Part shown: positions 2,287 to 53,842 of the stretch, one piece after another
Layout: each line of letters begins with the position of its first letter
How positions within the stretch are numbered: position 1 is the first letter of the stretch
Assembly (NCBI RefSeq): GCF_000328475.2
Contig: NC_026493.1
Span: 372,001-436,000 of the forward strand
Source of the DNA: Mycosarcoma maydis
Taxonomy: Eukaryota; Basidiomycota; Ustilaginomycetes; Ustilaginales
Length of the DNA stretch: 64,000 nt
Direction of reading: 5' to 3'
Notes under the pieces: model-generated
Told to the model about the DNA's origin: nothing
Database searches by the model: none
Seen by the model: only the letters and a program-made list of their open reading frames with translations
Program-made: the position numbers and the translations under genes

Positions 2287-4119
2287 TCACATATCGGTGA
2301 TGCAACCATGCGAAGCATCGGCAACGTTACGAACGAACTTGAGCAGGTGGCCCGATTTCGGTTTGAGCGGTAGAGGCTTCCACGACTCTCTTCGGGACTC
2401 GAGATCGGCAGCGGATACACCGACAAGCTCCAACGTGTTGGTCTCGGCATCGATGCTGATCACATCACCATCCTTTACGAGGCCGATCGGACCTCCGACC
2501 TGTGCCTCGGGAACGACGTGACCGATGACGAAACCGTGACTTCCACCGGAGAACCGACCGTCGGTCAAACAGGCTACATCCTGCCCAAGACCAGCGCCCA
2601 TGATCAAACTGGTAGGTTTGAGCATCTCGGGCATACCAGGTCCACCCTTAGGACCCTTGTAGCGCAACACGATCACTGTCTTTTCACCCTTCTTGATCTC
2701 GCCCTTTTCAACGGCGCCAACCATGGCATCTTCGGTGTCAAAGACGCGCGCTTTACCTGTGAATCGCAGACCCTCTTTTCCAGTGATCTTGGCGACGGCG
2801 CCACCAGGCGCAAGATTGCCCTTGAGGATTCGAATGTGGCCGGTGCTCTTGAGAGGCTTGTCGATCGGTCGGAGCACGTCTTGGCCTGCAGGCAGTTTGC
2901 CGCGCTCGTGCGTCCATCGGTCGACGTTCTCGGCAAGCGTTCGACCGGTGACGGTCATGTGTTCACCCTTCATCAGCTTGTTCTCGATGCAGTACTGAAT
3001 AATCGTCGGGATACCGCCGAGTTTCGAGTGAACATCTTCCATCACGTACTTGCCCGACGGCTTGAGGTCGGCAAGGAATGGAGTCACGTCGGCGATGCGC
3101 TGGAAGTCGTCAATGCTGAGCTCGATGCCGACCGAGTGAGCGACAGCAATCAGATGTAAGACTGCATTCGTGCTGCCTCCGAGAACCATGGTGAGAGCGA
3201 TCGCATCTTCGAAGGCGGATCGCGTCATGATGTCGCGCGGCTTGATGTCCTTTTCGAGGACGAGGCGCATGGCGGCTCCCATATTTTCGGCTTCGGCGAT
3301 CTTTTCAGGGTATTCTGCCGGGAACGACGAGCTACCTGGGAGCGTCATGCCGAGAGCCTCGGCGCATGAAGCCATGGTGTTGGCGGTGTACATGCCACCG
3401 CACGCACCGGGACCGGGACAGGCGTTGCGGACGGTGTCATAGCGAATCTTTTCAGCAGCCGGAGAGCCTCCGTTGGCGAGGTACTGGCCGTACGACTGGA
3501 AAGCAGAGACAATGTCGAGCGTGCCCTCGACGCTAGCACATCCACCGGGACGGATCGTTCCGCCGTAGAGCATGATTCCGGGACGATTCAGACGGCCGAG
3601 AGCCATCAGCACACCAGGCATGTTCTTGTCGCAACCGGGAATCACCACACAGCCATCAAGCCAATGACCACCGCAAGCCGATTCCACCGAGTCAGCGATC
3701 AGATCACGCGACGGGAGCGAGTACGACATGGCGTCTGTACCCATCGAGATACCATCCGAAACACCGACAGATCCAAACTGATAACCGGTGAGACCGGCTT
3801 GCTGCACCGACTTTTTGACGCGCTGCGAGATGGCGAGCAGGTGCGCGTTGCATGGGTTGCCCTCGTACCAAATCGAGCCGATACCAACCATAGCACGCGT
3901 GAGGTCCTCGTCCGACTGGATGCCGTCGGTGGCGTAGAGCATGGCTTGCGATGCTCCCTGATCCTTGGGCCGGGTGATGATACGCGAGTACTTGTTTAGA
4001 GCGCCCGGCGGAGCGCGCTCTGTGTTGAGAGCGGCTGAGGAGGTGTGGAGAGCGCGGCGGGAGGCGAGGCCGCCGCGCAGGACGCAACGTGCTGAGGGAC
4101 TGAGGGCGGATCGCAGCAT
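2287..4119 (-). CDS. ILV3: Dihydroxy-acid dehydratase, mitochondrial
   Basis: Fe-S enzyme of valine/isoleucine (and pantothenate precursor) synthesis that converts 2,3-dihydroxy acids to 2-keto acids in the mitochondrion. The 610-residue single-exon ORF starts at an ATG and begins with a basic, Ser/Ala-rich presequence of about 30 residues ([17 protein letters not shown]). Cluster cysteines are visible in [18 protein letters not shown] and [12 protein letters not shown], and the C-terminal [25 protein letters not shown] block is intact. Length and motif order are normal for the IlvD/Edd family, and no break is seen. It ends 184 bp from the convergent upstream gene. The roughly 830 bp in front of it are free of genes and hold its promoter. 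Confidence 0.97.
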
Positions 4120-8371: not shown

Positions 8372-11300
8372 TCACCGCGTGACTCCCTTGGCACCAGCCA
8401 GAGCAGCCGCACTCGCCGTTTGCCCCTTATACACCTTCCTGTTCGCATCATGCTGCACATCCTCCTTGGTAAAGTAATGCTTGGCCACCTCCAAGAGCCA
8501 TTCTGGCCTGATCTGCATCACCTGGCGCATGAAGTTCTTGCTAGTCTCTACCAGTTCGAAGAAGCACAAGAACGGCGGTTGCGGAATGTGCTTATACAGA
8601 CAGCTGGATGGATGGATATGGATCGTAGTGTTCTGTTTGATAGTCCTGTACGCCTCGCCGCCTTTCTGGATGCGCGCAGTGTTCATAAAGTAGCCGGCAA
8701 GAATCGAACGTTGGATCCCTGAAATGTCGGATGGATCCGCGTTGGATTCCGGTGTCAGCTCGACACGTTCGCACAGCTGTGAGAGTTGATCGCGAACATC
8801 GCGGACGCGCGCGAGCACCTTGGGCTGCACAAAGTTGTCGATGCAGAATTGATGGTCGTAGTTACTGTGTACCCATTGCTCCCATACGTTGAGCAGCGTC
8901 AAGTGGTCACCGCCCGGCTGCACAAACGCGGCACGTGCGCGATCCGCATGCATTTTCTTGTCCTTCGGTCGAAAGAAGAGCGCCGAAGACTCGGACAGCA
9001 TCGACACGATCGAAACCACCTCTTCTGTGCACCGGTACGTCTCACTCGCCAGAATCGCCTTGGACAGCTGCGGATCCACCGGAAACTCGGCCATCCTACG
9101 TCCGAGCTTGGTCAACTCTCCCTTGTCGTTAAGCGCACCGAGCGCGTACAACAGCTCGAACGAGCGCATCAGCGTATCCGACGGCGGCGGATCGAGAAAG
9201 TCAAAGTTGAGCAGATCATTGATACCGAGCGACTTGAGTAGCAGCACTACATTCGCCAAATTGGTTCGTTGGATCTCGGGCGTCGTGTTCTCCTCCATCT
9301 CGTTACGGAATGCCCACTTGGTAAATAGACGGAAACACTTGCCAGCACCCACGCGGCCTGCGCGACCAGCACGCTGATTCGCCGACGCGCGCGAACACGC
9401 CACCACCGTCAGCGACGACATGCCCGTTCGCGCATTGTACGAGTTCTGCTTGACAAACCCCGGATCAATCACAAACACCACCCCGTCAATCGTGATCGAC
9501 GTCTCGGCAATGTTGGTCGCCAACACTACCTTCCTAGCCCCCTCGGGTGTCGGCTCGAAAATCTTGGCCTGCATCTCACTCGGCAAGTTGGCGTAGATCG
9601 GACAAATAATCAGCTCGGCGATCTTGTTGCCCAACGCACGGCTCGTCTCCTGAAGATTCTCCATGGCAGCATCGATCTCGTCTTGGCCCGTCAAGAACAC
9701 GAGAATGTCACCGCGCGGCTGTGTCGTGTGAATCTGAAACACGGTCGTGATGGCTGCGTGCAGATAATTCGCCTCGGGCTGCGGCGTGTAGTGGATGTCG
9801 ACGGGATACCTTCGTCCAGGCACGTCGAAGATCGGAGCATCGTCGAAGAACTCGGAAAATTTTTCAGCATCCAGTGTAGCACTCGAAATGAGCAGCTTCA
9901 GGTCGGGTCGAAAGCGCGCAATATCCTTGACTAGACCGAATAGCACATCCGTGCTCAGCGTCCGTTCGTGCGCTTCGTCAATGATGATTGCCGAGTACGA
10001 GCTCAGGTCGGGTTCCGTCAGAAATTCGCGAAGAAGCATGCCGTCGGTCATGTACTTGATCACCGTATCGTCCGACGTGCAGTCCTCGAAACGAATGCTG
10101 TAGCCACACTCGCGACCGAGACGGACGCCCATCTCTTCGGCCACACGTGCTGCAACGCTCATCGCGGCAACACGACGTGGTTGCGTGCATCCGACCTTCT
10201 TTCCGTTCTTCGTGTAGCCGGCTTCGTGCAAGAATTGCGGCAGCTGCGTCGTCTTTCCTGAGCCTGTTTCGCCGACGACGATGAGCACCTGGTACTCGTC
10301 GATAGCATCGAGCAGTTCTTGTCGGAGCGCGTAGACAGGCAGCGATTTGCGCGTGGCCTGAATCTTGGCTGCCTTTGTCTCTGCCTCGTCGATCTGTTGT
10401 TGCAGCAGTTTGTCTTTGGCGCTCATGGCGTTGTTAGAGATGCCGGCCATTTGCGACTCGACAACAAATTGAATTGTCTGGCTCTCGTCAAAGACATAGT
10501 CGTATTGCTCCACAAGCTCCTTGGATGCTTCGTTGGACGGCTCGGCGACGTAGCGCGAGCGATTGATCTGCTCTTTTTCGAACTGTTCGGCGTCAGTAAC
10601 GTGCGTCTGCTGGGCGAGTCGTTCGGAACGTGCATCATTGTAACGCTGATAGAGGGCTTGCTCCTTTTTGGCTGTGTCGAGTTTGCCTTTTTCGGTAATG
10701 TAGTCTTCCGGCATCATGTATCCAGTATCGCCATCATCTATGCGCGCTCGTTCTTCTGCCAGACGCAGCACCTCTTTCTTGTACTCGAGATCTCGCTCTT
10801 CGCGTTTGGTCATCTTTAGACCACGGAAAAAGCGCTCCTCGTCCTGAATTTCTAGCCGCAGGAGTTGCATGCGTTGTTGCGCGCGTTTGGCGAGGTAATC
10901 TTGCCTTGATCGGTCGCGCAGGCTGGGCATGGCTGCGGAACGTGCGTCGTCGTCTTCTGCCAGTAGGCGACGCGCGGCAGCTTCTGGGTTGAGACGAGCA
11001 GTGGTGCGATCTTCGACGACGTTGCGGGTGCTGGTTTTGTCCTTGTCGCGCATGCGTCTTGCAAATTCATCCCTCTCGGCAAGGTCCTTGAGACGGGCAC
11101 GCTCGCGCGAGTCTTGGTCTGATCCGGGTGCATCGTTGCGCGGACTAGGAGATTTGGATCGTCGCTGGTCAACACTTGGTGATCGCGACCTTGGATGTGG
11201 TTCTCGATCGACCAGGCCGATTTCCTGCTTCTTCTTCTTCTTCTTTTCAGGTTTGATGGCGAGCTCCTCCTGCCCATTTTCCTCATCCAGAATTAGTCCG

Positions 11301-20279: not shown

Positions 20280-20787
20280 GCTGCGCTATCAGAGATGCCA
20301 AAGGGCGGTCGATCGTGGTGGGTGTCAAGCAGGTCGGTGGCTTGAGCGACATCCACATTCGCAATGATTCACGATTCGTGATTCGTGATTCGTGATTCGT
20401 GATTCGTGATTCGTGATTCGTGATTCGTGATTCTCCAAGAAAAGAAAAGGACCAAAAATAAAAGGAAAGTGGAAAGCTTATTCACGATTTTGTCTTTGGC
20501 TGGTCGCTGCGGTTGTGCACTGTTGTGAGTGACATGCGAAATAACGTTAGATTGAAAATATATATTGTATATAACTATACAGTATAACACCACCACCAAC
20601 GAAATCAACAAGCGTCAAGCTACCAACGTGCAAGGCACAGGGTCCAACGACACCTCCTCCACTTTCTACCGTCACGCGTTGGTCGTCGTTTCAGCCATCG
20701 GTGGTCGCTCGACCTAGACACAGACTTTTAGGGAACCTGTACGGCCTCGTGCGTTGGTCAATCAGGACAAAGGTGTGCCCAAGAGTG
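20280..20787. other. Divergent promoter region ELP2 / ATE1
   Basis: Holds the 9-unit heptamer array at 20367-20432 and an AT-rich stretch near 20545-20590. The ATE1 frame is open upstream from 20701, but only with a GTG, so this part is treated as non-coding. Confidence 0.55.
20367..20432. repeat. Heptamer tandem array, ATT-(CACG/CGTG)
   Basis: Nine exact 7-bp units plus a closing ATT (66 bp). The first core is CACG and the next eight are CGTG. This is the purest array of the dispersed heptamer family described in the findings. Confidence 0.95.
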
Positions 20788-22305
20788 ATGGCAGAAGACC
20801 GTGCAGAGGTGCAGCTGTCGATCATATCGCCCACGGGCTACACAGCGTCTACTTGTGGCTACTGCACTGCTCCCGGCTCCGGCAAGCGAAGCCAACACAA
20901 ATCCGCAAAGTCATACGGCATCTGGGCGCACCGTCTCTCGCCATACCATTACCAGAGTCTCATCGACCGAGGATGGAGAAGATCAGGCCAGTACATATAC
21001 AAGCCGGATCTGCTCAGAAGCTGTTGTGCACAGATGCCGATTCGACTGGAAGCTCGCAACTACAAACCTAGCAAGAGCCACAGGCGTGCTTTGACCAATC
21101 TGCTGTTTCGAGTACGTCAAACCAAGCTCAAGCCGGCCAAGTGGAAGGGAAGGTGGAGTATCTCACGAGATTGGGACATAGAACAACGTTGGAATGAGAT
21201 CACACCCTTCAACGCATCACAGAGCGATGCTTCGACGTCGTCGTTGGCATGGGCGGACTCGGTCGCAGGACCGATCACTCGTAAGCTTCAAGTTCGTCTT
21301 GCTCTGGCTGCTACCTCTGACGAAAAATACCAACTTTTTCGCAAATATCAGGCCAAGATTCATGGTGAATCTGAACATGATATCAGCGATGAACCAGGCT
21401 TTCGTCGCTTCTTGGTGGATACGAGCCTTGTCTTGACTTGGCCTTCCACGGGCAAGCCGCTCACGCGCTCCGAACAAGTGGAATGGCGAGCCAAGAGCTT
21501 TGATCCAGCCTGCTTGCCCGACCAACTTGCGTATGGCTGCTACCACCAAGAATACCGATTGGAGGAGAAACTCATCGCCGTCGGTGTGCTTGACATCCTA
21601 CCAAATTGCGTCAGCAGTGTCTATGTGTTCTACGACCCAGAGTACAGCGATTGGGAGCTGGGCAAGGTCTCGGCGCTGCAAGAGATTGGCTTGACCTTGC
21701 GCCTCAGTCGGCTCAAAGCCATGTCCAAGGTCGCACATTACTACATGGGCTTCTACATCCACACGTGCCAAAAGATGAAGTACAAGGCAATGTATCGTCC
21801 CAGTCAGGTGCTCGATTGTGACAGCAATACGTGGCACAACTTGACTGATGTCACCAAGGCTTTGGACGCGAAGCGGTTTTTCGATTGGTCGGATGACCAA
21901 TCTCGGTCTCAAAAGCACGATGGCTCACCTGACCAAACATTGGACTCTGACGCAGAGCAGGAGCAGGAAGAACATGTGGTTCGCCTGCCGACACGGCCAC
22001 GTCCACCACCAGGCATGCTCGATGCTACTGCAATCCTGAAAGCTCTCGAGCAGACATTGCATGGCGCCTGCACTGCCAACGAGCCTGACGTAGGCTGGGA
22101 TCTGTTACAGCATGCCATGGTCTTGGAAGTCGAGAGGCAGGCAGAGGGTATCAAACCGCTCTTGATATCCAACGTTTTGCGCGACCATGCGCAGAGCCGC
22201 CGGGAAAGTAAGAGTAACAAAGATGCCGAGCTGGTACAAGTGGTCGAGTGTGTGGCGGCCCTGGCGAGTGCACAACTAGTGGCCGAGACGATTTTGTTCA
22301 TCTGA
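20788..22305 (+). CDS. ATE1: Arginyl-tRNA--protein transferase 1
   Basis: Transfers Arg from Arg-tRNA to N-terminal Asp/Glu (and oxidised Cys), creating Arg/N-degrons for proteasomal degradation. The start is placed at ATG 20788 (MAEDRAEVQLS); the in-frame region from 20701 begins with GTG. The product is 505 residues. N-terminal ATE domain: CGYC with downstream YGIWAHRLSPYHYQSLIDRGWRRSGQYIYKP and a CC pair (SCCAQMPIRLEA), all conserved. C-terminal ATE domain: LIAVGVLDILPNCVSSVYVFYDP, YYMGFYIHTCQKMKYKAMYRPSQVLDC. The tail of about 150 residues is acidic/Gln-rich and variable. Length matches fungal Ate1 (about 500). Divergent from ELP2, convergent with SEM1. Confidence 0.94.
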   Translation: MAEDRAEVQLSIISPTGYTASTCGYCTAPGSGKRSQHKSAKSYGIWAHRLSPYHYQSLIDRGWRRSGQYIYKPDLLRSCCAQMPIRLEARNYKPSKSHRRALTNLLFRVRQTKLKPAKWKGRWSISRDWDIEQRWNEITPFNASQSDASTSSLAWADSVAGPITRKLQVRLALAATSDEKYQLFRKYQAKIHGESEHDISDEPGFRRFLVDTSLVLTWPSTGKPLTRSEQVEWRAKSFDPACLPDQLAYGCYHQEYRLEEKLIAVGVLDILPNCVSSVYVFYDPEYSDWELGKVSALQEIGLTLRLSRLKAMSKVAHYYMGFYIHTCQKMKYKAMYRPSQVLDCDSNTWHNLTDVTKALDAKRFFDWSDDQSRSQKHDGSPDQTLDSDAEQEQEEHVVRLPTRPRPPPGMLDATAILKALEQTLHGACTANEPDVGWDLLQHAMVLEVERQAEGIKPLLISNVLRDHAQSRRESKSNKDAELVQVVECVAALASAQLVAETILFI

Positions 22306-22906: not shown

Positions 22907-24504
22907 ACTGGCTGAGGATGCGAGCGCTTGCAGGCTGTGCGGTTGTGTGGCAAGTCTAGCGAAGCGGCTGGACAGAGTTGAGAGTGAGTCGTGTAGCAAT
23001 CCTAGTTGCAAGAGCACAAGGAGATCAAACGGTCGCTGGCTTGCCGACAATGGTGGGTGGTGGACTGATTTGGTGAGAACCAAGTGAGTCACGAGGGTGC
23101 GTACTCCCACTAAGTCGTCAGTCGTAAGTCGTGAGTCGTGAGTGTTGCTTCCAAAAAGTGGAGAGGTGAGTTTGCGGGCGGGCGGATGACGGCGAATCAC
23201 GAATTATACGTGATAAATCGTGAAGGGTAACGTGCACACGCGTCCCGATCACGATTTTTCTCGTTGTTAGACGGCGACAATCAACATGAAAATCGACATT
23301 CGTGATTGTGCCCGTGCCCCTGCCGCAAATTCGACACCAACTTGAATCGTGAATCACGAATGATGGTCCGTGAACGCGAAGAAACACGAACACCGAAGGA
23401 CTGACTCGCTCTCCTACCCTTGTCGACTCAGCGACTGTCAAGCTTTACCTCTTTACCTCTCTCGGCCGCAGTGAATAGGACGCCCAAGTCCAAGCTCTTT
23501 GCGCACATGACACTTTGAATATGTAAAGTGAGTACTGTACAAGTGTTGCAAAGTCACCGTCTGAGTGGTCATGGGGATCCTCTGAATTCCACGTAGCACA
23601 CTCGTCACTAGATTCACAATCGTGAAGAACTGAAGCATCGCGTTGCAAGCCGCAGCCATAGCAACCACGAAATGCATATGACTTGGCCAACCACATAACA
23701 GTCGCGGGTCAGTCAGAGTCCTCGCTGAGTATTATAATAATATTATAAAAACCAATCAGTTTGCTTATTCGTGATTTATGACATATTAATCGTGAATAGA
23801 ATACATATACCTTTGGTATTTACCCTTCACAACACACCATACATAATACACAATTCACGATTCACGATTTGCCGGTGGTTGGTTTCAAGTGAGCTTGCGC
23901 GTCGCAATCATGAATTCAAAGCAAATTTCAAATGACAATCCAAATTGATATAGCGTACATGGTGCGAGCCAAGAGAGAGCGAGAGAGCAGCTCTGTAGCA
24001 GAGAGCCAACCAACTAAGTCACGAGTTTGTCGATTCATCTCGCTGGCTCCGACACTTCCAACGCATCACCTCGGTGCGAGCATGTGCACTTGCCATGAGC
24101 CATGAGCCATGAGCCATGACCGATGTGACCCATGCCACGACGAACGACGCACGCCCCAACCAGATCACGCCGCCTCGCCTCGCCTCGCCTCGACCACATT
24201 GGCAATCCTTGTCCTAACCCAATCCCTCGTTCTCTTCCTCTTCCTCTCTTCTTTCTCTTTCTCTTGTGCTTCCTTGACTTCATCGCTTGCGTTGGCTCGC
24301 TTTCGCCTTGATCTTGTTTCGCATCATCATCATCATCGATCACAGCGGCTGTCTGGGCATCATCGTCAACGTCTCACTCTTTCATCCGAAGCCACATCAG
24401 CACAGACATCTACTTGTGACGCTCTTTCGCATTCCTAGCCGCCATCAGCTACACATACACGCAGCTCTAGCGCTCGAGCTGGCTCGGTATCCATCAGCGC
24501 AGCT
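22907..24504. other. Long divergent intergenic region SEM1 / SEC31
   Basis: About 1.6 kb without a supportable gene. Heptamer words (AGT-CGTG-AGT, AAT-CACG-AAT) cluster at about 23110-23365. An AT-rich stretch lies at 23720-23880. A G/A purine-rich run is near 23970-24000. CCTCGCCTCG and CTTCCTCTTC pyrimidine tracts at 24170-24280 precede the SEC31 start and probably mark its 5' UTR/promoter. Confidence 0.55.
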
Positions 24505-38261: not shown

Positions 38262-39234
38262 TCTGATGGTGGTTGAGACGGTGGAGGTCGTGATCAGACC
38301 ACGGACCGTTGCCAGTGATATGGGGTTCTGGCATAACTACATGAAAGTCGAAAACACGAAATCGTGAATCGTGAATGTGAAACTCGAAACGGGAACGTGA
38401 ACCGTGGAACGAAACCCGGGAACACGGAACACGGAACACGGAACACGGAACACGAAAATGGCTGGGCATATCAGATCACAGAATCCATTCACGATTCTAG
38501 ATCGTTATTCCAAGTCGTCAGTGTTCACAACGTGCGTGCTGATATGATTAAAGGGAAGTGTACGTGACAAAGTCTCGCTATGTGAGACAGCTGTCACTAT
38601 TCACGATTGGTTTCGACGTTCCCTTTCATTCGTGATTCTCTAACTCAGCGTGGAAACCCCCCAGGTTATACTATTAACGATTCATGATTAATGTTGTTGT
38701 CCTTTTTTGTTTAGGGAGCCCGTCCGAGGCCTTGGACAGCGGCCTATGCAGACTCCCGCCAAGTAGCGGTTCACAAGACTAAAGGACTCAGTTATGATTC
38801 GTGAACCTAACGCAAGAACATTTAACCCGCGTGCCGAAGTGAAAAGTTCCTCCAGGCTAGGCCTTGGCTTCGGCTGCACACAGGAGATGATAGCTGGTCA
38901 CTGGATAACCCTAAAGCCAAGCGATTCACCTGGGTTCGGACGGTGTCGACACTCACTCCGACTCACTGCTCACTCGCTCGGCGCTTTCGATCCTCCCTCG
39001 CAGCTGTTCCACAGTCAGGCTGCGATCAAGCGAGTCCTGCGCTAACGAGTCAATTGCAGCAGGCTATGCGGCAGCCACATGTCGTGTGTGTCTGCGCCTT
39101 CTGTTGAGAGAGGGTGTTTTGAGCGCAGCGTGCTCGGATTTATAGGTGGAGCTCATCTCAGCTTTCTTGCCCTACTTCTCGACGTTAACCATGCATCCGC
39201 CTACTATCTTCAGGCAGGCTGCCTTTTGTTGAAG
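38262..39234. other. Repeat-island left border
   Basis: No gene seen. It includes AAT-CGTG-AAT words near 38360-38380, the GAA-CACG array at 38420-38457 and scattered heptamers to 38690. The right half is ordinary unique-looking DNA with short, unconvincing frames. Confidence 0.45.
38420..38457. repeat. Heptamer array GAA-CACG
   Basis: Five CACG cores separated by GAA, ending in AAA. It has the same 4-bp core and 7-bp period as the ATT/ACT arrays, but with a different trinucleotide, showing that the core and the spacer vary independently. Confidence 0.9.
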
Positions 39235-41372: not shown

Positions 41373-41603
41373 TGAATCTTTAGCGGGCACTCGTGACTAG
41401 ATGATCGAAGTCTCCTTTCCTTAGAGAGGCGAGTTGGGACTGAGTAGTGGTCGAGAATGGTTTGGAATGTATTTGGATAGTGTGTTTTGGACAAGGGACT
41501 AACTACAAAGTGTGAGCGTTTCCTCTGTATTTATGTACATGAGCTGACTGGAGTATCCTACATGAGCTTCTTCCTATACGTCAGCTCCTCATACAACTGG
41601 CTA
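41373..41603 (-). mobile_element. Copia LTR copy A, antisense, truncated by the assembly gap
   Basis: Reverse complement of the right-hand part of LTR copy B (about 45315-45545). It shares GGGACTAACTACAAAGTGTGAGCG-type sequence, the CTGGAGTATCCTACATGAGC block and CGTCAGCTCCTCATACAACTG before it runs into the N run. Its outer end is TGAATC, the complement of the LTR terminus GATTCA. It carries one extra ACT-CGTG-ACT heptamer at 41389-41398 absent from B. Confidence 0.85.
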
Positions 41604-41703
41604 NNNNNNNNNNNNNNNNNNNNNNNNNNNNNNNNNNNNNNNNNNNNNNNNNNNNNNNNNNNNNNNNNNNNNNNNNNNNNNNNNNNNNNNNNNNNNNNNN
41701 NNN
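41604..41703. other. Assembly gap (100 N)
   Basis: Exactly 100 unknown bases, the conventional size for a gap of unknown length. It sits between an antisense LTR and a sense pol fragment, so repeat collapse or a misjoin is likely here. Confidence 0.98.
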
Positions 41704-44160
41704 GAAGGAATGCATGGCAAACGCCAGGATCTTCACGGTATCCGGGTCTTTGGGTGTAAAGCATGGGCACGCGTACCTGTCGAACTCCGCAAATCCCTGG
41801 ATCCCAAGTCTGTTGAATGCATACACCTGGGACATGTTAGCAATAACCACCCTTACATATACAGACTCATGGACGTAGAAACCGGCCAGATCTTCACAAG
41901 TCGGCACGTCATCTTCCGGGAGAACGAGCGGATTCGGCGAAAATCTGAAGCCCCCTTCGAGGAACTTTCAGATGATGAAACTGGAACCACGGGAAACAAT
42001 CTCCCGAGGCCAGGATTACCGGCCCCGGTCCGCTCATCGCTGAACATCCCAAGGACTTCCCCATCGTCCGAAGAACCCAGTCAACCAGTGGGAGCCACCA
42101 ACTACCCTCATCTCGCCTCAATAGAGGAAGCGCAATTAGCAGATACTACCGAGAGCGGTGATTCACTGGAGAGTCCAACTCAACAACTTGTTCCTTCAGC
42201 AGAATCCACAGATGACGAATTCCATGAACCGATCAACCTTATTCCCTCAAGAAGGCGACCTCAAGACATCCGAGGCCGGGACTCCCCATCGCGGCATCAA
42301 GAAATAGATGACGAGTCCGATGACTCTCTCGCTCTTCTCCCGACTCCTCACCAAACAGTGGGAGGAGATACAACAACAGTGGGAGATACAAGAACAGTGG
42401 GAGACAAAAACAACGCAAACGAGAGCACGGGTGACGAGTCACGTTACAACCTTAGGGCAAGGCCCCACAGACTTGGCGATTACGCCCGGCACGTGACAAC
42501 AAATCTTTCAAAGCCACCGGCCACCCTGAAACAAGCTCGCATGCGCGCCGACTGGCCCCTATGGGAAGGTGCCATCCAGGCAGAACTCAAAAGTCATGAA
42601 TCCAACAAGACTTGGACCCTCGTAGACCACCCACACAAACAAAGCCACCAATGTGGTCAGCTGCAAATGGGTATTCGCCATCAAGAAAAAGGCCGATGGA
42701 TCTCTCGACAAATACAAGGCACGACTCGTCGCACGAGGCTTCACACAGCGATACGGATACGACTACGACGAAACCTTCTCTCCAGTAGTAAAGGCCACCA
42801 CGTTACGCATCCTCATCGGCCTCGCCGCGGCATTCGACTGGAAGATTGTTCATTGGGACGCAGTCACTGCTTTCTTAAACGGACGCCTATCGGCAGAAGT
42901 ATACATGACGATGCCTCCCGGTCACGAAGTACCCGGGAAGGTCTGCTTCCTGAACAAAGCCATCTACGGTCTCAAGCAAGCCGGCCGCGAATGGTACCTC
43001 TTCGCTACGAAGGTACTCGAACAGCTCGGATTCACGAAACTGCAAGAAGACCACTGCCTCTTTCATTCCAAGAAGGCCGGACGACAGATCTTACTTGCAT
43101 TATACGTCGATGACCTCGTCGCTGCGTCACCAAAAGCATCGGAACTCGCCTGGCTCCACACCGATTCAATCCAAACTCATTTTAAAATCACAGATCAGGG
43201 CGATTTATCTTCTGTGCTCAACGTCAGCGTGTCGAAATCTACCAATTCCACTTCCCTAGGCCAACCTGGTTACATCCAAAAGATCCTCGATCGTTTCCAG
43301 ATGCTCGAAGCGAAACCCGCCTTCACACCATTACCCGCCACTGGCATTGCTCATCCCGAAAACCCCGAGCACTGCTCCGTCGCGGACAAGGAACTCTTCC
43401 AACAGCTCGTAGGCTCTGTCAACTACCTGGCTTGCTACACTCGACCAGATGTGGCATACGCGGTACAAGCTCTCAGCCGCTATTTAGCTCAACCGACGAT
43501 CCACGCACTCTCTGCTGGAAAACACCTTCTCCGTTACCTCAAGACTACGCAGGACTATCGCCTCCGGTTCCCCAAACTAGCGAGTGGGAGGAATCTGACC
43601 CTAGAGGTCTTCACGGACGCTGATTTTGCAAACCAGAAGGCGATTTACTCTCCTCAATCAAGAGTTAACCACCAAAAACAAGATCGTCATACCGGGTCGA
43701 CACAACAAACACCCCTCGCAAAAGCGTCACAGGAATGATCTTCCTAATGAACGGTTCCCCAATCAGCTGGCTATCCAAACAACAACCTATCATCGCAACC
43801 TCAACACAAATGGCTGAATATATCGCGGCCGCGGAAGGCGCGAAAGAAGCGTTGTGGATCAGAAGCCTGTTTCATTTCCCTTCAACTTCGAGGAAAAGAA
43901 GCAATACCTCACTACATTGACAACCAGGCAGCGATCCAGCTATGCAAGAACCCGGTACTTCACAAGGCTACAAAGCACATCGACATCATCTACCACAAGA
44001 TACGCGAATTGGCCGCCGTCGGTGTTATCAACATCGAATATACCGAGTCAGGGGAGCAACGAGCGGATGCGCTCACAAAGACGCTCAACCGTCAGCAGAT
44101 CGAAAAGTTCTGCAAGGAGATTGGCCTGAAAGACAGGTCCAACGAGAAATCCTCTCAATA
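41704..44160 (+). pseudogene. Ty1/copia retrotransposon pol pseudogene (integrase end, RT, RNase H)
   Basis: It begins inside the integrase C-terminal region just after the gap (RVFGCKAWARVP, SRHVIFREN). An acidic Ser/Thr-rich linker (about 41950-42450) leads to NLRARPHRL and the start of the reverse transcriptase near 42520. A frameshift near 42650 moves the reading to a second frame with the copia RT (CKWVFAIKKK, ARLVARGFTQ, GLKQAGREWY) and the catalytic YVDD at about 43107-43118. A second shift near 43630 and a third near 43870 carry the reading through the RNase H region (MAEYIAAAEGAKEALW, ADALTKTL) to a stop at 44160. Gag, protease and the integrase core are missing or in the gap. Dead as read, though an error-rich assembly near the gap is possible. 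Confidence 0.9.
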
Positions 44161-44802
44161 AACTCCATGACGGAAACATCTGCCTTTCACAACCTTCAAT
44201 TCGCCCTCGCTGAACGCGTGCGAAAACTAGGCAGATCGATACAACAGAAAGCCTGTTGGCCGCAGCTTTCGACCTGATGGGTTTGGATCATCCAAAGAAG
44301 GTCCCATCAAGGTTCAAGGACTTGCAAAAGGACTGGAAACCCAACTGACACAGTGGTATCCACAAAAGTCACCATGCACACTTCCCTGATTCTCCCTCCA
44401 CTGGAGGATAACGAGAACGAATACATGATGTATTCAGGGAACAAAACCTCACGCGTCGCCAAAAAACGAGCTGTGAAAGTTCCCAAATCACGAGCATCAC
44501 GTAGGTTTCCCAGGACCATGGAGCAGTCAAGTAGTCAACGAAAGCTCACCGAACGAAGCTTCAACGAGGGCCCACCTAGAGGAAAGATTCGCTGGAAAGA
44601 GCCGCAGCGCACCTCAAATGCCCCAGACACTTACACTTCGATCCGTAAGAGGACACGGCGCACACACCTTCCAAACTTGGACGGAAAGTTTTACGCCGCA
44701 CACATCAAGACAGAGAGCAACATGGCGCGATCCCCACCGAGTGGGAGCGTCAGTGTCTCTGCGATTCATGATTTGGGCACTCAAACACCATTCGAGTGGG
44801 AG
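44161..44802 (+). other. 3' internal region of the copia element up to the polypurine tract
   Basis: Between the pol stop and the LTR. It ends with the polypurine tract GAGTGGGAG (44794-44802) directly before the LTR TG. An open frame at 44353-44808 runs through it and into the LTR; it has no recognised domain and is probably chance or an element-specific extra frame. Confidence 0.6.
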
Positions 44803-45545
44803 TGTTAGAATATCTACGATTGGCGTTTTAGTCTGATCGCCCACAATCATGCAACCCTTGCAGTAACCTAACCGGTATACACGCAGAGTGACCGGGACGG
44901 TGAACGAGTAGGTGTCTCAGTACGCGCGCTATACGCGCGCGACACGCACTCAATACACCAGCGGTACGTCTGCGGTACGCGTGCGATACACTCTCAGTAC
45001 GCGCGCTATACGCGCGCGACACGCGCTCAATGCACCCGCAGTACGTCCGCGGTACGCGTGCGATACACTCGCAGTACGCGCGCCATACGCGCGCGACACG
45101 CGCTCAATGCACCCGCAGTACGACCGCGGTACGCGCGCAAGTATAGTAACTCGCCAGAGTTTCCCCGCTTCACAACATAGCGCTGGTAGCGAGAAGCCCA
45201 GAGTAGATTCACACAAGTCGCTGGACGACTGTGGGAACACGCCGTTGGCTACAGACTCGTACCAAGTGGAAGAACCTGAGGGAGAACAGACTCATGCATC
45301 TGGCCAGTTGTGGCCACAGCTAGTCAGTTGTATGAGGAGCTGACGTATAGGGAGAAGCTCATGTAGGATACTCCAGTCGACTCATGTACATAAATACAGA
45401 GGGAACGCTCACACTTTGTAGTTAGTCCCTCGTCCAATTCACACTATCCAAATACATCCCAAAACCATTCTCGACCCTACTCAGTCCCAACTCGCCTCTC
45501 TAAGGAAAGGGAGACTTCGATCATCCAGCGCCCGCTAAGGATTCA
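44803..45545 (+). mobile_element. Copia LTR copy B, 743 bp, complete
   Basis: Starts TGTTAGAATATC after the polypurine tract and ends GATTCA, the TG...CA ends of a Ty1/copia LTR; same strand as the pol pseudogene, hence its 3' LTR. It contains a CG-rich 77-bp satellite (44917-45139) and lacks most heptamer insertions present in copy C, so it serves as the reference for them. Confidence 0.88.
44917..45139 (+). repeat. 77-bp CG-rich tandem repeat within the LTR, about 2.9 units
   Basis: Units begin at 44917, 44994 and 45071, each with CAGTACGCGCGC, ATACGCGCGCGACACGC and GGTACGCG motifs. The long CGCG and alternating purine-pyrimidine runs could form Z-DNA or hairpins. Copy C has at most a shortened single unit, so the expansion is specific to B. 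Confidence 0.9.
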
Positions 45546-46402
45546 CCGCGAATATTGAATAGGGTGGTTGCCAGGGTGGTTCCCAGGACGACTTTCTCCT
45601 TTTTTCACGACGTGAATGTGACTTTCGAATCATGCAATAGGAGATCGTATTGGATCACGCAGACTTCATTTATCATGCATGAAACACGAATTCCAGAAAA
45701 TGAGAAAAACAGTTAACTTAATCACGAATGATGAAGAGATAATTATGAATCGTGAATCATAATCACGAATTGTTAATCGTGAATGGCCAAGTTAGATAAA
45801 TCACGAATATTCACGTGATTATACTCATGACTATTATACTCACTCGTGACTTGTAGTAACGTTAAATTCATGAGTTGGTGAGGACAAATTCATGGTCGTG
45901 TATGGTCACTTTTAGCGTCTGACAACGGCTGTACGTAATAATCACGAATGTTTTCCTGAATGCACCTCGTGCAAAGAAAGCTCATAAGGTCTGGCTCTTC
46001 AAGCACGAATTGTGAATGTAGACCTCATCGCTGTTGCAAAGAAAATACAATCACGAGGAAAAGAACGACATTATTCACATTTCACGATTGCGAAGTCACG
46101 AATCTGAGTACTAGGATACACTCACAGACTTGATGAAAATCCGAGAAATTCACGATTCGTGATTCAACAGGCATCTCATGCAAACATAGGATGAACCTAC
46201 AGCCTCGACTTATTCACGATTCCACCTTTTTTGTAGGGAAATCGTAAATCGTGAACTGTAGTTCCTGATTCGTGAATCACGATTCGTCACGTTTGATGCT
46301 CGTAGATAGCAATCGTGAATTACGAATCACAAATCACGAATCTGTGAATAGTGAATCAATAATCATGATTTACGAAACATGCACGAATAATCAAGTATCA
46401 AT
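45546..46402. other. AT-rich, heptamer-dense spacer between LTR copies
   Basis: No gene. It contains copy 2 of the GGTGGTT element at about 45558-45620, then AT-rich DNA packed with AAT-CACG-AAT and AAT-CGTG-AAT words, including degenerate CATG and TAA-containing versions (45720-46375). Confidence 0.6.
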
Positions 46403-47123
46403 CAAGAAACCTTTTAGCGAGCGCCATCACGCATATGTTCGAAGTCGCCCTTTCCTTAGAGAGGCGAGTTAGGACTGAGTAGGTCGAGAATCACGAATCA
46501 CGAATCGTGAATGGTTTGGAGTCGTGAGTGTATTTGGACTCGTGACTGTCACGAGTCACGAGTCGTGAGTATGTTTTTGACAGTCACGAGTCGTGAGTGA
46601 TTTTTGGAGAGGGGATTAACTACAAAGTGTGAGTCAAGAGTGCCTCTGTATCTATTTACATATGCTGATTCGTGATTCACGACTGACGACTGACGACTGG
46701 AGTATCCTACATGAGCTTCTCCCTACACGTCAGCTCCTCTTACAACTGACTCGTGACTAGCCGTGGCCATAACTCACGACTGGCCAGATGCATGAGCCTG
46801 TTCTCTTTCTGGTTCTACCACTCACGACTCGTGACTTGGTACGAGTCTGTAGTCAACGGCATACCCGTGATTCCTGAAGTCGTCCTGCGACTCACGACTT
46901 GTGTGAATCTACTCTGGGCTTCTCGCTACCAGCGCTATGTCATGAACCGGGGAAACTCTGGCGAGCTACTATACTTGCGCGCGTATCGTGGGTGTAGCGC
47001 GGCGTTCTGAGACACCTACTCGTTCCCGTCCGGTCACTCGTGTGTTCCAATTCGTGATTCGTGATTGGGAACTGAGATGATTGTGGACGATCAGACTAAA
47101 AGCCAATCGCAGATATTTTAACA
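46403..47123 (-). mobile_element. Copia LTR copy C, antisense, peppered with heptamer insertions
   Basis: Full-length LTR in the same orientation as copy A (plus-strand end ...ATATTTTAACA is the complement of TGTTAAAATAT). It aligns along its whole length with the complement of copy B, except for insertions that are whole numbers of 7-bp CACG/CGTG units (46489-46512, 46749-46758, 46772-46781, 46820-46836, 46890-46899, 47050-47066, plus several between 46518 and 46700). It is probably the 3' LTR of the minus-strand relic to its right. Confidence 0.85.
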
Positions 47124-53320: not shown

Positions 53321-53842
53321 TGTGAAGGTATAGGGAAGGTTGATGGTGATGATAACGTGAAGAGATGCCAAGCAGCAATAGCCAAGGGGGAAGTCCAGCA
53401 ACAACTCTGCCGGATCACATCGGACGCACTCTGACGAGTCGGTGACTCTCCGCTTTCAACGTCGCTTTCACCCGTCGACCTTTTCTTGAAGCCACACAGA
53501 CGCTGCTGTGACCGGCTCAGCCGATGCGGAGCACCCGAACAAAAGCACCCACTAAGTATTACCTAATCACACTCCTCAATTTTCGCGCTTGCTTCCCTTT
53601 TGTGCTTCACGCTTCACGCTCACTTTGGATGAATGTATATTACGGAGACATAACAGCCTCTTTTCACAAAAAAAATATCACGAATCACGAATCACGAATC
53701 ACGAATCACGAATCACGAATCACGAATGCACGATTCGTGAACCTGGTCCTCTCTGCCGGCTGACGTAGCTGACGGCATGACGTGAGGCCAAAGTGCCTTG
53801 GACCAGTCACAGTCGTGAGTCACTCGTGACTGTGAAGGCTGA
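53321..53842. other. Divergent promoter region ETFA / DHH protein
   Basis: Contains the 7-unit AAT-CACG array (53676-53727) and ACT-CGTG-ACT words near 53815-53832. No gene seen. Confidence 0.55.
53676..53727. repeat. Heptamer tandem array, AAT-CACG
   Basis: Seven CACG cores, each followed by AAT, opened by TAT. The strand-complement form of the array at 20367-20432. A further ATT-CGTG-AAC follows after two bases. Confidence 0.95.

Follow-up and report, generated by a model that had tools for sequence, protein, structure and literature searches.

Excision of the Sleeping Beauty transposon leaves the scar C(A/T)G, in which the outer bases pair and the central mismatch is resolved either way. 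Sleeping Beauty footprints are identical to its 3-nt 3′ overhangs (PMC7827188), and mariner and Stowaway scars retain the target site duplications (TSDs) together with sequence from the element ends (PMC4561436). Here we describe short units of comparable build in the smut fungus Mycosarcoma maydis (Ustilago maydis), in a 64,000-nucleotide stretch of contig NC_026493.1 (assembly GCF_000328475.2, positions 372,001 to 436,000 of the forward strand; hereafter the window) and in the genome as a whole. Each unit consists of a four-base core, CACG or its complement CGTG, between two copies of the same A-N-T triplet (ANT), and copies of a long terminal repeat (LTR) family display the same sites with and without it. 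Thousands of such micro-insertions have been gained at A-N-T triplets in the non-coding DNA of the fungus.

Repeats of 10 bp in the U. maydis genome have been suggested to be footprints of transposable elements (TEs) (PMC4081816, citing Laurie et al. 2012 and Schirawski et al. 2010). They resemble the units in species, scatter, length (ANTCACGANT has 10 bp) and suggested origin. Their identity with ANTCACGANT is suggested by length and distribution, the passages at hand containing no sequence; nor do these passages contain empty and filled sites, the ANT rule, core orientation or minor cores. Given the 10-bp length of ANTCACGANT, the repeat and the footprint idea have probably been noted in print already. 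A search of the literature on Ustilago heptanucleotide or short repeats, TEs and microinsertions gave nothing on point among the results listed, and five tandem heptamer words had no match in the literature searched.

Units in the copies of one LTR family

LTR copy B of the window (44806..45545, (+)) contains zero perfect units and was used as the reference for 47 other copies, namely A and C of the window and L032-L076, each compared with B. Two family searches of the assembly (19,664,356 bases in 27 contigs) gave 41 and 64 matches, with the best 40 of 98 and the best 40 of 94 candidates scored; three full-length matches of the first search were left out of the comparison. No unit was present in the 29 young copies (0-0.6% diverged) or in six copies at 0.8-1.75% divergence, four of which are only partial sequence, while ten of the 12 copies diverged by more than 2.5% carry units.

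Insertions relative to B were tallied at the copy level if they had at least 2 bases and good flanks and lay outside the GC-rich tandem part of the LTR. Of the 36 insertions so obtained, 22 are 7 bp long and six are 6 bp long; one has 14 bp, another 21 bp, and the last six are of other lengths. The dominance of 7-bp insertions is what the initial annotation had proposed to look for in such a tabulation, and a lack of 7-bp enrichment, one of the two outcomes that it named as a refutation, did not occur. All 22 have the form ANT-core-ANT, with CACG or CGTG in 20 and the decayed cores CACA and CAAG in one each. Five of the six 6-bp insertions represent one allele at site 304 (three perfect ATT units and two decayed forms), which exceeds the old unit-free allele by 7 bp and was misaligned as 6 bp because B differs there; the remaining one is a unit combined with a 1-bp loss. 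Insertions other than clean units comprised AA, CATCACGCA, CGTGAACGTA and one of 52 bp, and those of 8 bp and 26 bp contain units.

At 17 unit sites the unit is missing from all 29 young copies and from most of the older ones; at each of the 17, most copies have the allele without it. The units in the LTR copies are therefore gains. In the unit-free allele the same single ANT is found at 14 of the 17 sites (for site 304 this holds in six old copies but not in young ones); at the other three (reference positions 16, 89 and 135) the unit-free allele of most copies is one base off the unit's ANT. Which sites are filled varies from one old copy to another. Site 325 has a CACG core in C and a CGTG core (ACT-CGTG-ACT) in L069 and L071, indicating that one ACT was hit twice, independently. 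Between L071 and L069 there are 17 substitutions in 562 bases, and L071 has four additional 7-bp insertions.

The window itself holds two unit-bearing copies. Copy A (41374..41603, (-)), 5.4% diverged when aligned to the reverse complement of B, has one ACT-CGTG-ACT unit (ACTCGTGACT) at 41389..41398; the other copies, B included, are unit-free there and read GCT where A has ACT at 41389, so that the target is one base off from B. Copy C (46414..47120, (-)) is old, 8.4% diverged, and carries many units. Three AAT units with cores CACG, CACG and CGTG (AATCACGAATCACGAATCGTGAAT) occupy 46489..46512, where A has an empty AAT and B an empty ATT. These are followed by AGT-CGTG-AGT at 46520..46529 (AAT or GAT in other copies), ACT-CGTG-ACT at 46538..46547, pairs of AGT units with CACG then CGTG at 46554..46570 (starts 46554 and 46561) and at 46582..46598 (starts 46582 and 46589), and ATT-CGTG-ATT at 46668..46677. 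Further along, ACT-CGTG-ACT (ACTCGTGACT) at 46749..46758 has its empty site at 45322-45324 of B, and ACT-CACG-ACT (ACTCACGACT) at 46772..46781 and again at 46890..46899 at 45306-45308 and 45216-45218. Two ACT units with CACG then CGTG (ACTCACGACTCGTGACT) at 46820..46836 correspond to 45265-45267 of B, and L074 holds a single CGTG unit at this site. Two ATT units, both CGTG, lie at 47050..47066 (starts 47050 and 47057). Every unit sequence listed in the initial annotation is present where it was placed, and C has more perfect units than were named (those starting at 46520, 46538, 46554, 46561, 46582, 46589, 46668, 47050 and 47057). The empty sites given for B likewise exist, except that 45266-45268 is off by one, as it reads GTG and the AGT lies at 45265-45267.

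The same annotation, from which we take over the label "copia", had taken A, B and C for LTRs of one element. This does not hold: A is inverted with respect to B and cut by a gap, and C is a separate copy, and for this reason the polarity of the changes was taken from other family members. The gap, exactly 100 N at 41604-41703 and probably an assembly gap, ends copy A and separates it from the element interior. Between the gap and B, the open reading frame (ORF) at 41710-43113 (+) encodes a retroviral polymerase SH3-like domain, in a Pfam scan covering five of the 13 ATG ORFs of at least 300 aa. The GC-rich part of B (44915-45135) is a 77-bp tandem repeat of 2.9 copies, the length of which is highly variable among the LTR copies.

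Abundance and anatomy of the units

Three of the four unit types were counted throughout the genome, ACTCACGACT being left out of the total. They occur at 21,430 places, compared with 67 for their reversed controls, with AATCACGAAT at 8,759 places on both strands (control 7), AATCGTGAAT at 9,389 (control 4) and ACTCGTGACT at 3,282 (control 56). For counts that depend on sequence context we used an unselected sample of 124 kb, made up of the window and six arbitrary 10-kb stretches. It contains 197 ANT-(CACG/CGTG)-ANT units, where third-order Markov sequence leads one to expect 1.4, in keeping with the triplet and core originally proposed. There is a modest excess of duplicated triplets other than ANT around the same cores (59, with 23.6 expected), for which one-base decay would account. 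ORFs of at least 250 aa cover 69.7 kb and contain not one of the 197 units; all lie in the other 54.2 kb, although 110.8 would be expected in ORFs by length alone. As a separate observation, the flanks of nine old LTR copies (L066-L074) are rich in units, with 8.4-23.8 per kb at eight of the nine and 1.0 at L073; the non-ORF DNA of the unselected sample has 3.6 units per kb.

In the same sample the middle base N is equal on the two sides of the core in 197 cases and unequal in 22, and it is thus copied from the target. As A and T are constant, copying is strictly proven for N only: a duplicated ANT with an inserted CACG, and a duplicated N with TCACGA inserted at A_T, give an identical string. 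In the window, each type of flank other than A and T has one or two matched-N copies. Together with the empty and filled alleles at the 17 sites, the freedom of core orientation and the single units at unrepeated sites, these observations support the initial description, in which 4 bp are inserted and a 3-bp ANT target is duplicated.

The core has no preferred direction. Single units are divided 122 to 121 between the two orientations in a 188-kb sample chosen in part for AATCACG doublets, and the genome-wide counts for AATCACGAAT and AATCGTGAAT also give a ratio of about 1:1. The 188-kb sample includes 17 loci selected for AATCACGAATCACGAAT, so its array tallies are biased. Two-unit arrays of mixed orientation exist, as repeated insertion predicts. 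Doublets in the window are of the same orientation in 24 cases and mixed in nine (overlapping counts), an excess that points to slippage as probably lengthening the arrays. Long heptamer arrays, perfect or nearly so, are found at 20365-20433 (9.9 copies of TGATTCG) and 53677-53733 (8.0 copies of ATCACGA), and heptamer tandems of other sequence at 38419-38454 (GGAACAC, 5.1 copies) and 24092-24119 (GCCATGA, 4.0 copies).

CACG is by far the main core: ANT-N4-ANT in non-ORF DNA has it at 197 places and the next core at 18. Among other lengths, CACAG/CTGTG cores are found at eight places in non-ORF DNA (0.23 expected); in the genome ANTCACAGANT, of the form ANT-CACAG-ANT, occurs 1,177 times against 56 for the reversed sequence, with N matched at 82 of the 100 places listed (25 expected). 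By its structure this form is an 8-bp insertion, and none is seen in the LTR copies compared. ANTCACNNGANT, with a CACNNG core, has 730 places against 235 reversed, and N is matched at 55 of the 100 listed (25 expected), palindromic CACGTG places being listed twice. CAC/GTG and CAG/CTG cores in non-ORF DNA exceed expectation to a small extent, on 16 places (2.8 expected) and eight (2.3 expected), one place, in LTR sequence, being chance-like. The insertion class is therefore broader than 4-bp cores, and the excess of CACAG and CACNNG with matched N indicates a process that yields mainly the 4-bp core and, beside it, others. We also considered CATG as a separate mismatch-repair product and rejected it; its count, 18 against 15 for CACA, is about that of CpG decay alone.

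Proposed excision footprints and rival explanations

On balance we lean towards the units being footprints left by the excision of a cut-and-paste DNA element. Such an element would duplicate a 3-bp ANT target on insertion, and its excision would leave a 4-nt 3′ overhang, 5′-CACG, on each flank. Two CACG overhangs would pair at their outer bases only (C-G and G-C) with two central A.C mismatches remaining, and replication would resolve this joint so that one daughter receives CACG and its sister CGTG, which would account for the 1:1 orientation of the core. The minor cores (CACAG, and perhaps CAC, CAG and those of 6 bp) would come from shifted cuts or end processing. A low-copy element making rare jumps over a long time would be sufficient, with selection clearing units from genes while those in dead LTRs and spacers survive. 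Two features of known footprints are present: a target duplication flanking a short core (17 sites; N equal in 197 and unequal in 22) and junction variability, in the CACAG and CACNNG cores with matched N. The step from Sleeping Beauty and mariner to this genome is one of inference.

Several observations weigh against such footprints. The donor element was not found in the stretches examined, a small part of the 19.66 Mb, and no longer insert with ANT and CACG/CGTG at its borders is seen in the LTR copies compared. A screen of the same stretches for ANT-flanked CAC...GTG pairs whose ends resemble each other gave 24, where each of four other terminal triplets gave zero to one; every one of the 24 has CACGANT as its left end and looks like a unit. 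Genome searches with PF02992 (Transposase_21, CACTA) and PF18759 (Plavaka) gave no match, and the control of each was silent too. Precise excision is the general rule for PIF/Harbinger elements, whose TSDs have 3 bp. Rice excision scars are mostly messy, with eight of 94 perfect (PMC4423477), while here one product dominates. The old LTR copies L070 (5.8% diverged) and L072 (4.4%) lack any unit, and the identity of the overhang as CACG is a deduction.

The neither-occupied-site-nor-donor outcome in the material examined, together with the single dominant core, is what would be expected if no larger DNA had ever been held at these sites. A nuclease or transposase-derived enzyme would cut ANT with a 3-nt stagger, and a short core of fixed sequence would be added during repair, whether copied from an RNA template, supplied as an enzyme-bound oligonucleotide or made by a dedicated polymerase. 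The data on sites, matching N and orientation fit such an element-free micro-insertion equally well. Against it, the related cores of several lengths (CACG, CACAG and the weaker CAC and CACNNG) look like variable end joining and not like a fixed template, and we know of no enzyme that inserts DNA in this way, which also counts against it. We consider this explanation the main rival, possible if doubtful. Only tentatively, then, might a fungal enzyme be supposed to cut ANT and seal in a short fixed core with no mobile element ever involved, a process so far undescribed and in effect a seven-base "transposon" that has hardly any DNA of its own.

The abundance of units provides a further potential source, as a broken or stalled ANT end could prime on an existing unit and copy CACGANT by template switching or gene conversion. 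Possible donors abound in the genome, and a 3-base match would also equalise N on both sides. This mechanism should nevertheless copy any sequence that follows ANT, at any length, yet CACG is found 197 times and the next core 18 times, and spacings other than N4 show small excesses only; it also leaves the origin of the first units unexplained. We therefore regard it as improbable.

Replication slippage of a tandem heptamer microsatellite is very improbable as the origin of the units. Tandem arrays do exist, as at 20365-20433 and 53677-53733, and same-orientation doublets prevail (24 against nine); however, single units lie at repeat-free sites, and slippage is unable to invert a core, as mixed-orientation arrays and the even division of single units would require. 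The initial annotation, which held that the units do not resemble slippage, is thus borne out for single units and needs amending for arrays, which slippage probably lengthens. Equally hard to credit is the reverse polarity, in which units ancestral to the LTR family were lost by deletion between the 3-bp repeats: deletion would yield the same empty allele, and losses cannot appear as deletions relative to a unit-free B, but the allele without the unit prevails at all 17 sites, including in every young copy, the old copies differ in which sites carry units, and L071 has four that its relative L069 lacks, so the derivation by deletion that was initially named as a refutation does not apply.

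Should the units be footprints, then the 21,430 counted places are a fossil record of the jumps of one transposon across the genome, from which its choice of target, the geometry of its cuts and their repair can be learned, and an element that nobody has named is implied; if no element was ever present, they represent a new way of inserting DNA. On either reading the insertion process is real, strong and genome-wide, and constitutes a major source of small insertions in the non-coding DNA of this fungus. As an illustration of its rate, one LTR gained four units while it and a relative accumulated 17 substitutions between them. Comparisons of smut genomes must model the seven-base insertions.

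Comparison with known systems

Tc1/mariner elements and Sleeping Beauty share with the units a target duplication on both sides of a few bases, which in their case come from the element ends (PMC7827188 and PMC4561436). They differ in target and core, since the TSD here is ANT (3 bp) in place of TA and the core has 4 nt in place of 3, and in that tens of thousands of putative scars are present here with the element itself not found. CACTA (En/Spm) elements make a 3-bp target duplication and have ends starting with CAC (table in PMC4423477), as in the units; their ends read CACT(A/G) and their targets vary, whereas here the ends would be CACG or CAC and the target is ANT. CACTA and Plavaka transposases were set aside as the source after the searches described above, which had no match and silent controls.

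PIF/Harbinger elements likewise make a 3-bp target duplication, at TAA/TTA and not at ANT. DDE_Tnp_4, a PIF/Harbinger-like transposase, is found at three places in the genome, of which two were read: L210 (C2:1202128-1202598) and L211 (C7:3319-3738). L210 is the one relic with a visible inverted repeat, AGAGGTTTTGGTC, which starts with AGAGGTTTTGG and not with CACG. These relics were rejected as the donor, as target and termini both differ.

Bacterial heptanucleotide repeats, of the GGGAATC type in Xanthomonas and Nostoc and TAACTGA in Beggiatoaceae (PMC4692102 and PMC4679880), share the 7-bp period of the units, and the word AATCACG is common in prokaryotic genomes. An AATCACG 24-mer matched eight stretches of viral_contigs (L077-L084) and at least 119 of genome_contigs (L085-L203); such tandem heptamers are spread over a wide range of prokaryotic phyla, with frequent cases in Xanthomonas, Lysobacter and Luteimonas. 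A common cause with the fungal units seemed to be supported by an early count, in which 79 of 132 arrays could be parsed as ANT plus 4 bp. With arrays near AATCACG or one base from it removed, 31 of 64 could be so parsed against 24.9 expected (p 0.12), and this count, together with core orientation, led us to reject a common cause. In 16 bacterial genomes chosen for having an AATCACG array, AATCACGAAT occurs 896 times and AATCGTGAAT 101 times, the ratio being at least 5 in ten of the 16 and near one in three. We treat the bacterial arrays as a separate, mostly directional phenomenon: they run mostly in one orientation, whereas the fungal units are present in both, at 8,759 and 9,389 places.

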